Shown here piece after piece: positions 7,836-30,420 of a stretch of DNA of 64,000 nt; positions within the stretch are counted from its first letter, which is position 1; each line of letters begins with the position of its first letter. Location of the stretch: the NCBI GenBank assembly GCA_030426955.1, contig JAUHXS010000002.1, forward strand, positions 310,001-374,000, read 5' to 3'. The notes under the pieces are model-generated. The model had not been told where the DNA came from, did not search any database, and saw only the letters and a program-made list of their open reading frames with translations. The stretch comes from Bacteroidia bacterium. GTDB lineage: Bacteria; Bacteroidota; Bacteroidia; Chitinophagales; JAUHXS01. Made by a program: the position numbers and the translations under genes.

Positions 7836-8957
7836 TTAAGTAATGAAATCTAAATAATTTTCCTTTGTAATTACAGCAAACTCATGTTGAGGATAATTGT
7901 TGCTGAAAGTTTTTGGCAGCTTAGCTTTATTTTTCGTAAACTTGAATTCATAAGCAAATAATACTCCATCTCTCTCTTCTAAAAAGTCAATTTCTTGTTG
8001 TTGTGTTGTGCGCCAGAAATATTGATTTTTATGAATTTTATTGTAATGGGTATGTTTTTGACGTTCACTTATTAAAAAATTTTCCCACAGCGCGCCTTTG
8101 TCTGCTCTGATTTCCAAAGGAGAAAAGTTAGAAATAAGGCTATTTCTTATTCCATTATCATAAAAATAGATTTTCTTTGATTTCTTTAATTCATTTCTGA
8201 CATTTCTACTTAAGGCGGTTAGCCTAAATATTATAAATGTTTGCTCTAGTAAAAAAATATATCGTTCAACAGTTTCTTTGTCGACTCCAAGTAAGTTGGC
8301 AAGTTCATTGTATGATACTTCTTGGCCAATCTGTAATGCTAGCGCTTTCATTAGTTTCTCCAATAAATCTGGCTTTTTGACTTTTTCTAGTGAAAATAGA
8401 TCTTTATACAGGAAGCTATCAGAAATGTTAATTAATACATTTTTTTCATTGCCAATATGGGTAATTACTTCAGGGTATAAACCATATATTAATCTGTGTT
8501 CAAGTAGCTTTTTCTCCGTTAGAGTATTACTATGTTGTATCATCTCCTCAACAGAGATTGGAAAAAGGTTAAATTCAAACTTTCTTCCTGTCAATGGTTC
8601 TTTTATTTTATCCGACAGCTCGAATGCAGATGAGCCTGTTGCAATAACTTGTACTTCTGGAATAGTGTCAATAAATATTTTTAGAGCTATTCCTATATTA
8701 TCAATTCTCTGCGCTTCATCAATGAAAATTAATTTATAATTACCAATTAGTCTTCTCAGCTTATCAGAGTTTGTATTTGATAATATTTCTCTAACTTCAA
8801 TTTCATCAGCATTAAACCATAAATATTCCTTTTTGCTATTTGTAGCTATTTGTTTTAGCAAAGTTGTTTTTCCAACCTGCCTTGGTCCAAGTAGTAGTAT
8901 AGCTTTGCCTTTAAATAGTTTCGAGCAAACATCATCATAAAGCATTCTATTAATCAT
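7836..8957 (-). CDS. AAA ATPase with DUF4143 domain
   Basis: A 373-residue protein with a P-loop ATPase domain followed by DUF4143. Walker A is GPRQVGKTT at 24-32, Walker B is LIFIDEAQRI near residue 75, and TGSSAFEL near 108 is the sensor region. The C-terminal DUF4143 half carries a winged-helix-like segment (about 210-240, SYNELANLLGVDKETV) and a nuclease-like end (QEIDFLEERDGVLFAYEFKFTK split around residues 318-340). Proteins of this architecture are very common in bacteria and scattered among strains; their function is unknown. It is not linked in function to its neighbours, and its upstream repeat (8966-9029) suggests independent regulation. Confidence 0.88.
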   Translation of the reverse strand: MINRMLYDDVCSKLFKGKAILLLGPRQVGKTTLLKQIATNSKKEYLWFNADEIEVREILSNTNSDKLRRLIGNYKLIFIDEAQRIDNIGIALKIFIDTIPEVQVIATGSSAFELSDKIKEPLTGRKFEFNLFPISVEEMIQHSNTLTEKKLLEHRLIYGLYPEVITHIGNEKNVLINISDSFLYKDLFSLEKVKKPDLLEKLMKALALQIGQEVSYNELANLLGVDKETVERYIFLLEQTFIIFRLTALSRNVRNELKKSKKIYFYDNGIRNSLISNFSPLEIRADKGALWENFLISERQKHTHYNKIHKNQYFWRTTQQQEIDFLEERDGVLFAYEFKFTKNKAKLPKTFSNNYPQHEFAVITKENYLDFIT

Positions 8958-8965
8958 AAGAATAT

Positions 8966-9029
8966 AAATATAATAAAATTCGTTTTGAAACGAAAAAAAA
9001 TATAATAAAATTCGTTTTAAGACGAAAAA
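8966..9029 (-). promoter_or_regulatory. Two 32-bp tandem repeats with internal palindrome ahead of the DUF4143 ATPase
   Basis: Units 8966-8997 and 8998-9029 are identical at 30 of 32 positions. Each holds a palindrome-like core TTCGTTTTGAAACGAA (second copy slightly changed) next to an AT-rich TATATTT when read on the minus strand. The first unit ends 8 bp ahead of the ATG at 8957, and TATATTT resembles a degenerate -7 element. A pair of operator/promoter units controlling the ATPase gene is the simplest reading. The second unit runs up to the stop codon of the fructosamine-kinase-like gene. Confidence 0.6.
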
Positions 9030-9914
9030 TCAGAAGTACAGGTTGATTGTTTCACGAACTGGCCTTAAATAGCTCTTCCCAAACAAATTAGCGTGAACCA
9101 GTAAAGGATAAAGGTTGTATATATCCACTCTGTCAATAAATCCGGGCTCTAAAGGTTTATTTTCATTATAAGCTTCATAAAAATGATTTTCAAAGCCACC
9201 AAATAGTTTGGTAAAGGCTAGTTCCATTTCCCGATGTCCGAAATATACAGCTGGATCTATTAGGCATACTTCATCTTGATTATTAACCATAAAGTTGCCA
9301 CTCCAAAGATCGCCATGCAATAGAGCAGGGGACTCTTCAGGAAAAATATTCGGCAAGCGCTTAAAAAGATGCTCAAATTGATTGTTTATCTCTGAGTTCA
9401 GTAAGCCATTTTTATTGGCTAATTCTATCTGAGGCATTAATCTTTGTTGTATAAAAAAGTCAGTCCAGTTATTATGATGATCATTATGCTGAACTAAAGA
9501 GCCAATGTAATTGTCATGATCAAGTCCGAAGCTATCATGAGTTATTTTATGAAGTTCACTCAATCTAAACCCGAAGTCTTCCCAGAAGTTCAGTTTTCGA
9601 GGTCCTGATTCGATATGTTCTAATAAGAGCCAACTGTAATTTCCCGAAACTTGGTTATCTATTACTTCCGGCGTGTTGATAGTATCTTCTGATCTAAGTA
9701 ATGATAGCCCTTTAGCCTCTTTGGAAAACATTTCTGGATAAAGTTTAGCATCATTATACTTTAGGAAGAACTTTCCTTGATTGGTTGTCAGTCCGACTGT
9801 ATGATTAATGCAACCACCACTGACGGGATGTGTTTCTTTAATAGTGACAAGTGTATTAAGGTACTTGCTGAGACTTTGTTCAACAGCGCTGGATATTACT
9901 TGAGGTAAGCTCAA
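9030..9914 (-). CDS. Fructosamine/ketosamine-3-kinase family protein
   Basis: A 294-residue kinase-like protein. It has a nucleotide-binding N-lobe (GGCINHTVGLTTNQGKFFLK near 28-47), the catalytic loop LLHGDLWSGNFMVN near residue 198 and the metal-binding DPAVYFGHREMELA near 220. These are the signatures of fructosamine kinases, which phosphorylate sugar-lysine adducts so that they break down (protein deglycation). It overlaps neither neighbour; only 2 bp separate it from the M48 gene upstream, so the two may be co-transcribed. Confidence 0.9.
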   Translation of the reverse strand: MSLPQVISSAVEQSLSKYLNTLVTIKETHPVSGGCINHTVGLTTNQGKFFLKYNDAKLYPEMFSKEAKGLSLLRSEDTINTPEVIDNQVSGNYSWLLLEHIESGPRKLNFWEDFGFRLSELHKITHDSFGLDHDNYIGSLVQHNDHHNNWTDFFIQQRLMPQIELANKNGLLNSEINNQFEHLFKRLPNIFPEESPALLHGDLWSGNFMVNNQDEVCLIDPAVYFGHREMELAFTKLFGGFENHFYEAYNENKPLEPGFIDRVDIYNLYPLLVHANLFGKSYLRPVRETINLYF

Positions 9915-30115: not shown

Positions 30116-30420
30116 ATTGGAGAGATAAAATTCTCAAAAAGTAAGTTTGATCATTAAGGTGATTTGTGCTAAAGGAGAGCCTTGTGAAATCTACGGACGA
30201 TAATTCAATCTCATAAAATAAGTAGGTTAAACAGTAATACATTTTCCTCTACTATCGTTAAAAAAATATAAACTGTTCTAGATGTTTTAGGGGATTTACT
30301 TCTGTTTGCTCTAGATGTTTTAGGGGGTTTTGAGCTGCGGTGTCTAGTTTTATTTGCATCTATGTAAGAGAATTGTTTATTTTTAGCAATATCTCAAAAG
30401 TTTACAACAAGATTGAATGT
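30116..30420. other. Intergenic region upstream of the orphan regulator, with a spaced direct repeat
   Basis: No coding potential is evident in this gap. Its right part holds a 17-bp direct repeat TCTAGATGTTTTAGGGG at 30277-30293 and 30310-30326, start to start 33 bp. The repeats end about 95 bp ahead of the regulator ATG at 30421. The remaining sequence shows no hairpin, tRNA or recognised promoter. Confidence 0.55.
30277..30326 (+). promoter_or_regulatory. Direct repeat, possible operator of the NarL-type regulator gene
   Basis: Two exact copies of TCTAGATGTTTTAGGGG start 33 bp apart, close to three helical turns, which would place bound proteins on one face of the DNA. They lie upstream of a response regulator gene and so could be a site for autoregulation. 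No copy was noticed elsewhere in the window. Confidence 0.45.

Follow-up and report, generated by a model that had tools for sequence, protein, structure and literature searches.

A tandem array in front of an ATPase gene

The window analysed here, a stretch of 64,000 nucleotides from a Bacteroidia bacterium, carries on its minus strand a gene (7836-8957) for a 373-residue ATPase with an AAA_14 domain, a winged helix and a DUF4143 part, recognized from its open reading frame, Pfam and PADLOC, which assigns it to the phage-defence candidate PDC-S01. DUF4143 ATPases are presumably the proteins that were formerly grouped as COG1373. Eight bases separate the ATG of this gene from a tandem array, and the far end of the array abuts the stop codon (9030-9032) of a fructosamine-kinase-like gene. 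TRF placed the array at 8966-9029, with a period of 32, 2.0 copies and 93% matches, and its score of 114 topped the list of 32 rows for the window. A second repeat search gave an identity of 88% in the alternative register 8960-9023.

We regard the two repeats as candidate operator units, one promoter-proximal (8966-8997, minus strand) and one distal (8998-9029, minus strand), the latter ending at the upstream stop codon; counted on the sequence, they agree at 30 of 32 bases. Each contains one TTCGT-N6-ACGAA palindrome, located by pattern search at 8979-8994 (TTCGTTTTGAAACGAA) and 9011-9026 (TTCGTTTTAAGACGAA), both given on the plus strand. The original prediction of two tandem, palindrome-bearing 32-bp units is thus confirmed by TRF, base count and pattern search. 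Its span of 8961-9032 needs trimming: the array is real, whereas the last three bases are the stop codon of the kinase-like gene. Read from the sequence, the box nearest the start, TATATTTA (8965-8972, minus strand), lies 14 bases past the proximal symmetry axis and is a near match to TAnnTTTG, the -7 box consensus that the available part of PMC7366714 gives for Bacteroidota. Another tandem array of the window, at 30277-30347, is weaker and has a 33-bp period (TRF score 77).

The protein exceeds the Pfam cut-offs for both DUF4143 (1.1e-42; 145.9 bits, cut-off 28.1) and AAA_14 (8e-31; 107.2 bits, cut-off 27), and the PADLOC model PDLC04789 (PDC-S01) matches it full length, over residues 1-372 (2.5e-165). 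In its AlphaFold model, with a mean pLDDT of 91.8, the helix-turn-helix of the winged-helix domain spans codons 216-239 (8241-8312, minus strand), with helices at 216-223 and 227-239, and a wing strand follows at 243-248. The Walker residues, K30 and D80, do not vary among the 151 proteins compared. In the DUF4143 part, the modelled elements H287-305, E311-317, E322-329, E332-338, H349-354 and E359-363 make up an alpha-beta-beta-beta-alpha-beta core (codons 287-363; 7869-8099, minus strand) in which E292, D324, E337 and K339 are kept in 150, 151, 151 and 148 of the 151 proteins, respectively. This order and these residues suggest a PD-(D/E)XK-type, nuclease-like fold, and we treat the part as a putative nuclease; in PMC12988326, PDC-S01 is presented as a fusion of an ATPase domain to the PD-(D/E)XK superfamily.

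Among solved structures, VIA-align ranked PABY2304 (2qen, Z 16.7) and SSO1545 (2fna, Z 16.3) highest, with 251 residues aligned within model residues 1-276. STAND/NLR proteins (RPP1, CED-4 and Avs5; Z about 12-14) came next, matching over the nucleotide-binding and winged-helix parts. STAND-like chains overall reach Z values of about 12-17 over residues 1-276 in this comparison of fold, and the list of matches spans mostly residues 1-281, so it says nothing on relatives of the DUF4143 part.

Upstream layout and private sites

A contig scan found 528 relatives, of which the best 80 (51-60% identical) were kept; the window and 79 of these homologues, one having been dropped for too little upstream DNA, made up the set for a tandem test, defined as a self-match of at least 19 of 26 at shifts of 20-45. 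The test was passed by 72 of the 80 upstream regions, the window included, versus 11 of 180 control regions upstream of other, uncurated ORFs at the same loci, and at a stricter cut of at least 22 the counts were 45 of 80 versus 4 of 180. Recurrence of the same architecture in so many upstream regions argues that the array is not a product of chance. The shift was 32 in 66 of the passing regions, 33 in five and 24 in one, while the control shifts were scattered from 20 to 33, with three at 33. Eight regions of this clade (clade 1) failed; in four of these (L087, L096, L098 and L110) the start is doubtful or the upstream DNA contains Ns.

Further loci were drawn from viral contigs (only two relatives), 60 class-level genomes and 296 phylum-level genomes, giving 174 in all after removal of exact duplicates, 151 of them in the window protein's clade. 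With a second alignment, the viral contigs gave seven relatives. Clear repeats were present at 101 loci, with two units at 78, three at 22 and four at one. Dyad symmetry at these loci peaked at the palindrome axes themselves (5.67 and 5.27; 5.0 at -33 for period-33 loci), where it is present by selection, and showed a further peak halfway from one axis to the other (5.12 of 8 at -16, versus 1.5-3.5 at other in-between offsets). In 31 of the 101 homologous loci, furthermore, the first base of TAnnTTTG falls exactly 16 bases beyond the proximal axis, against an expectation of 0.5 per offset. The original expectation that one motif recurs upstream of homologues therefore held only for the layout (32-bp spacing, palindromes and often a promoter box), which is common; the literal AAACGAATTTTATTATA is not, the palindrome letters differing from locus to locus and following each protein's helix. 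Symmetric sites at the gene's own promoter, in a conserved layout, mark the ATPase as a candidate autoregulator.

The same repeats might be read as RNA hairpins in a leader transcript, forming an attenuator or regulatory RNA, and the 72-nt minus strand does fold somewhat better than shuffles (z -2.55, equalled by 5 of 200). However, the palindromes are loop-less, those of a distant clade (clade 2) having mostly one central base, their spacing is fixed near 32 bp, and no Rfam family was found for the array. Any -7 box that was found is on the downstream side of the proximal palindrome, so transcription from that box should not include the palindrome. Base pairing in RNA would also leave the covariation with the helix-turn-helix, described below, unexplained, and we consider this reading extremely improbable.

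In the window's genome the sites are private to the array. The exact 17-base motif has two copies, both there, and with up to three mismatches it occurs 64 times, versus 111 for a reversed control pattern. TTCGT-N6-ACGAA occurs at three places in 3.4 Mb, two of them at the array, and its reversed control pattern at five. The third site (G000:C18:137151-137166, L282) is single and probably due to chance. With so few copies of the palindrome and the exact motif, a dispersed repeat of the REP/RAYT type was ruled out. The genome has seven DUF4143 genes, whose upstream elements differ when compared by eye, that of L034 being weak.

In one relative (G353, locus L220, 2038-2079), out of 15 relatives' pyrR loci found, the kinase gene and pyrR(-pyrB) lie 42 bases apart in the same order, with neither the ATPase gene nor the array between them. 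We infer from this empty site that array and gene form one cassette. A cassette of this kind might be a mobile or selfish element, with the repeats as its ends or target sites and the ATPase/nuclease acting on them to move or persist. Several observations would fit, namely the empty site, the conserved nuclease-like core, the occurrence of relatives on 535 plasmid records and a patchy, multi-copy spread, copies being present in at least 36 of the 296 genomes, with up to at least six per genome when six candidates per genome were scored. In addition, 4 of 90 loci (L064, L117, L057 and L048) have an operator-like site matching at 15-17 of 18 bases within 300 bases downstream of the ATPase gene, where shuffles give 0.3. 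Over all 90 loci, however, no general downstream partner site was detected (mean best 18-mer match 11.2 versus 11.0 for shuffles), whereas the upstream control gave 67 of 101 loci with a match of at least 15. The layout is moreover phased to a promoter box, and dispersed copies are absent from the window's genome, which makes a mobile element improbable as the explanation of the repeats. Two related ATPase genes lie close together on G078:C81, G078:C41 and G028:C10, and the six clade-1 copies of G078 have mostly different specificity residues.

Recognition helix and operator letters

The half-sites were read outward from the symmetry axis, and all protein columns were scanned against each base at 88 loci, with no region chosen beforehand and with ranking by permutation z. 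Base 6 was tied most strongly to residue 228 (z 16.6; mutual information 1.43 of 1.82 bits), followed by residue 227 (z 9.6). Residue 226 ranked first for base 5 (z 21.9), followed by Q27 (z 12.8), K119 and A205, which lie outside the helix and so point to shared ancestry. In the AlphaFold model, residues 226-228 open the recognition helix; in the window protein they are Asp-Lys-Glu (8274-8282, minus strand), which we propose as specificity residues from the mutual information scan and remote-only prediction.

A simple code relates residue 228 to base 6 at the 101 of 151 loci that entered the table: lysine goes with C in 44 of 46, asparagine with A in 18 of 19 and glutamate with G in 13 of 15. 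Aspartate (G, 4 of 4), histidine (C, 3 of 3) and glutamine (T, 2 of 3) are rarer. Three of the five exceptions among lysine, asparagine and glutamate (L125, L166 and L167) look as if their axes were misplaced. The other 50 loci fell outside the table by a protein-blind rule, based on a palindrome/tandem score and GC. This rule had been revised after wrongly placed axes were noticed, the GC weight being raised from 1.2 to 2.5, the score threshold lowered from 44 to 42 and one filter dropped; the original rule, applied to 88 loci, gave the same picture (lysine to C in 41 of 44, asparagine to A in 16 of 17, glutamate to G in 13 of 14).

Near-identical rows among the loci are not independent. With training limited to proteins that share less than 60% identity beyond the helix-turn-helix region, residue 228 gave base 6 correctly in 84 of 93 testable loci; the closest neighbour left in the training set was right in 54 and the majority base in 48. 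It ranked first of 342 columns in this test, with a gain of 36 over the majority and 13 for the next best column. Because remote-only prediction beats both baselines, shared ancestry does not explain the effect of residue 228. Protein pairs 60-70% identical had base 6 in common in 157 of 161 cases if residue 228 agreed and in 1 of 36 if it differed; at 30-50% identity the corresponding counts were 324 of 437 and 239 of 2313. Residue 226 showed no clear gain for base 5 in the remote-only test of clade 1 (76 of 94, versus 72 for the majority base). Tree-based independent pairs for the lysine/C relation ran in the right direction in 3.9 of 5 and in none in the opposite one, a set too small for significance. 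Taken together, it is statistically well supported, by comparison of sequences, that the ATPase's own DNA-binding domain specifies the letters of its site. No support was found for a tendency of paralogues in one genome to avoid shared specificity: residues 226 and 228 coincide in 2 of 35 pairs from the same genome, where identity-matched pairs lead one to expect 3.3.

Most often a palindromic operator belongs to a dedicated regulator, which would favour an operator of a separate host transcription factor, with the ATPase gene merely one of its targets. Such a factor would not be expected to leave letters that track the recognition helix of the ATPase beyond relatedness. The differing elements of the seven DUF4143 genes in one genome, the near confinement of the palindrome to this array and the relative with the flanking genes but neither ATPase nor repeats also argue against it, and we judge a separate factor very improbable.

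The proteins of clade 2 match the PADLOC model PDLC04790 best (5 of 5 lower-scoring relatives tested), and their genes often have a single long palindrome, mostly with one central base, in place of tandem units. A strong palindrome, with a score of at least 10, was found at 30 of 51 clade-2 loci and was lacking at 21; the background maximum was 8.5 among 230 simple shuffles of 23 clade-2 regions. At the 30 loci, D226 goes with C at base 5 in 9 of 9, versus 1 of 21 others, and K228 with C at base 6 in 10 of 10, versus 6 of 20 others, some of these loci being close relatives and not independent. Both rules were first noticed on earlier loci, and the later-added ones include only three with D226 (3 of 3) and four with K228 (4 of 4), all agreeing. 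A rule from S226 to G at base 5 was discarded, holding in just 3 of 15. The clade-2 loci with Ser226 (L257, L258, L267, L265 and others) have half-sites AACTTG, AACTTC or similar, as if in another register or code.

Seventeen homologues on plasmid records were also hand-picked across phyla, two of them from Bacteroidota, and each was compared with 200 simple shuffles. A palindrome or tandem repeat was found in 13, with a shuffle P of 0.025 or less in one or both of two tests, including examples from Treponema (32-bp spacing), Moraxella (perfect 21-bp arms) and Haloferax. Those from Acinetobacter, Nitrosomonas, Sulfuricurvum and Lactobacillus fell short of the 0.025 level in the same tests.

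Proposed working and relation to known systems

We consider it likely, on comparative grounds, that the ATPase occupies its own operators, which extend across its promoter, and thereby holds down its own expression. Comparison shows a conserved layout, private letters, helix covariation and, in a distant clade, the rules for D226 and K228 once more, all of which support such a reading. The winged helix would read each half-site with the first residues of its recognition helix, residue 228 corresponding to base 6 and, less firmly, residue 226 to base 5. Since 32 bp is about three helical turns, bound dimers would lie on one face of the DNA and could touch. The -7 box falls roughly at the next symmetry axis, so that a bound array would cover the promoter and keep expression low; with the box inside the presumed bound stretch, autorepression is the simplest outcome. 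The original idea that the DUF4143 ATPase has an operator, with its own winged helix as the possible reader, is essentially supported by the tandem layout in 72 of 80 regions, the private site and the helix covariation, while repression itself is what we infer from them.

Loss of DNA binding, for example during phage attack, might then lead to more of the AAA+ ATPase/nuclease or to its release to act, with ATP state, loss of DNA or a phage product as candidate triggers. In the available part of PMC4406477 (Table 1), the Thermus thermophilus gene TT_P0211 (AAA_14, DUF4143) is up 6.6-fold with a plasmid, only in the Argonaute strain, which hints that a DUF4143 ATPase gene can respond to foreign DNA. 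It is conceivable, though we rate it as rather unlikely, that the protein, a widespread immune candidate made up of a single gene, is a STAND-like ATPase-nuclease, that its winged helix reads specific DNA sequences by a short residue-to-base code which can in part be transferred, and that its array on a private operator serves as a safety catch: an invader that strips, degrades or titrates the DNA would cause the protein to be made and freed and its nuclease to be switched on.

PDC-S01 is among the closest known systems, the window protein matching PDLC04789 and the five lower-scoring relatives tested PDLC04790. It is defined by the protein alone, and the available account in PMC12988326 contains neither an operator nor a recognition code for it. 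The same account puts PDC-S01 in fourth place among prokaryotic defences by frequency, with 29,494 bacterial and 9,986 archaeal systems detected, and describes candidates of its type as still unvalidated as phage defence. Our search of the literature found no operator of a DUF4143, PDC-S01 or COG1373 gene, preprints and most subscription papers lying outside its scope, so an earlier report is possible; none was found in the accessible part of PMC5760070. The archaeal AAA+ ATPases SSO1545 and PABY2304 resemble the window protein in fold over residues 1-276, whereas the DUF4143 part lies outside the alignment. We know of no operator for either of them.

STAND/NLR ATPases are the next structural matches, over the nucleotide-binding and winged-helix parts. 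The winged helix of NLRs is usually not a DNA reader, whereas that of the window protein, which has only 373 residues and a C-terminal DUF4143 part, appears to read DNA; our results suggest that reading DNA is within the reach of a winged helix in a STAND-like ATPase. Autoregulated controllers of toxin-antitoxin and restriction-modification systems act at palindromic sites and are usually small, separate proteins. The likeness to these controllers is a DNA-binding product that, in our case presumably, represses its own promoter at palindromes; the difference is that the regulator, the ATPase and the putative nuclease would all reside in a single polypeptide. Binding of a gene product to its own operator is of a known kind, and what appears to be new is that a STAND-like ATPase with a nuclease-like domain does so, by a code that can be read throughout a very large family. 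For PDC-S01 this would open a first way into its mechanism: each protein would have its own defined DNA ligand, swaps of single residues could probe the code, and the promoter could report when the system is switched on.
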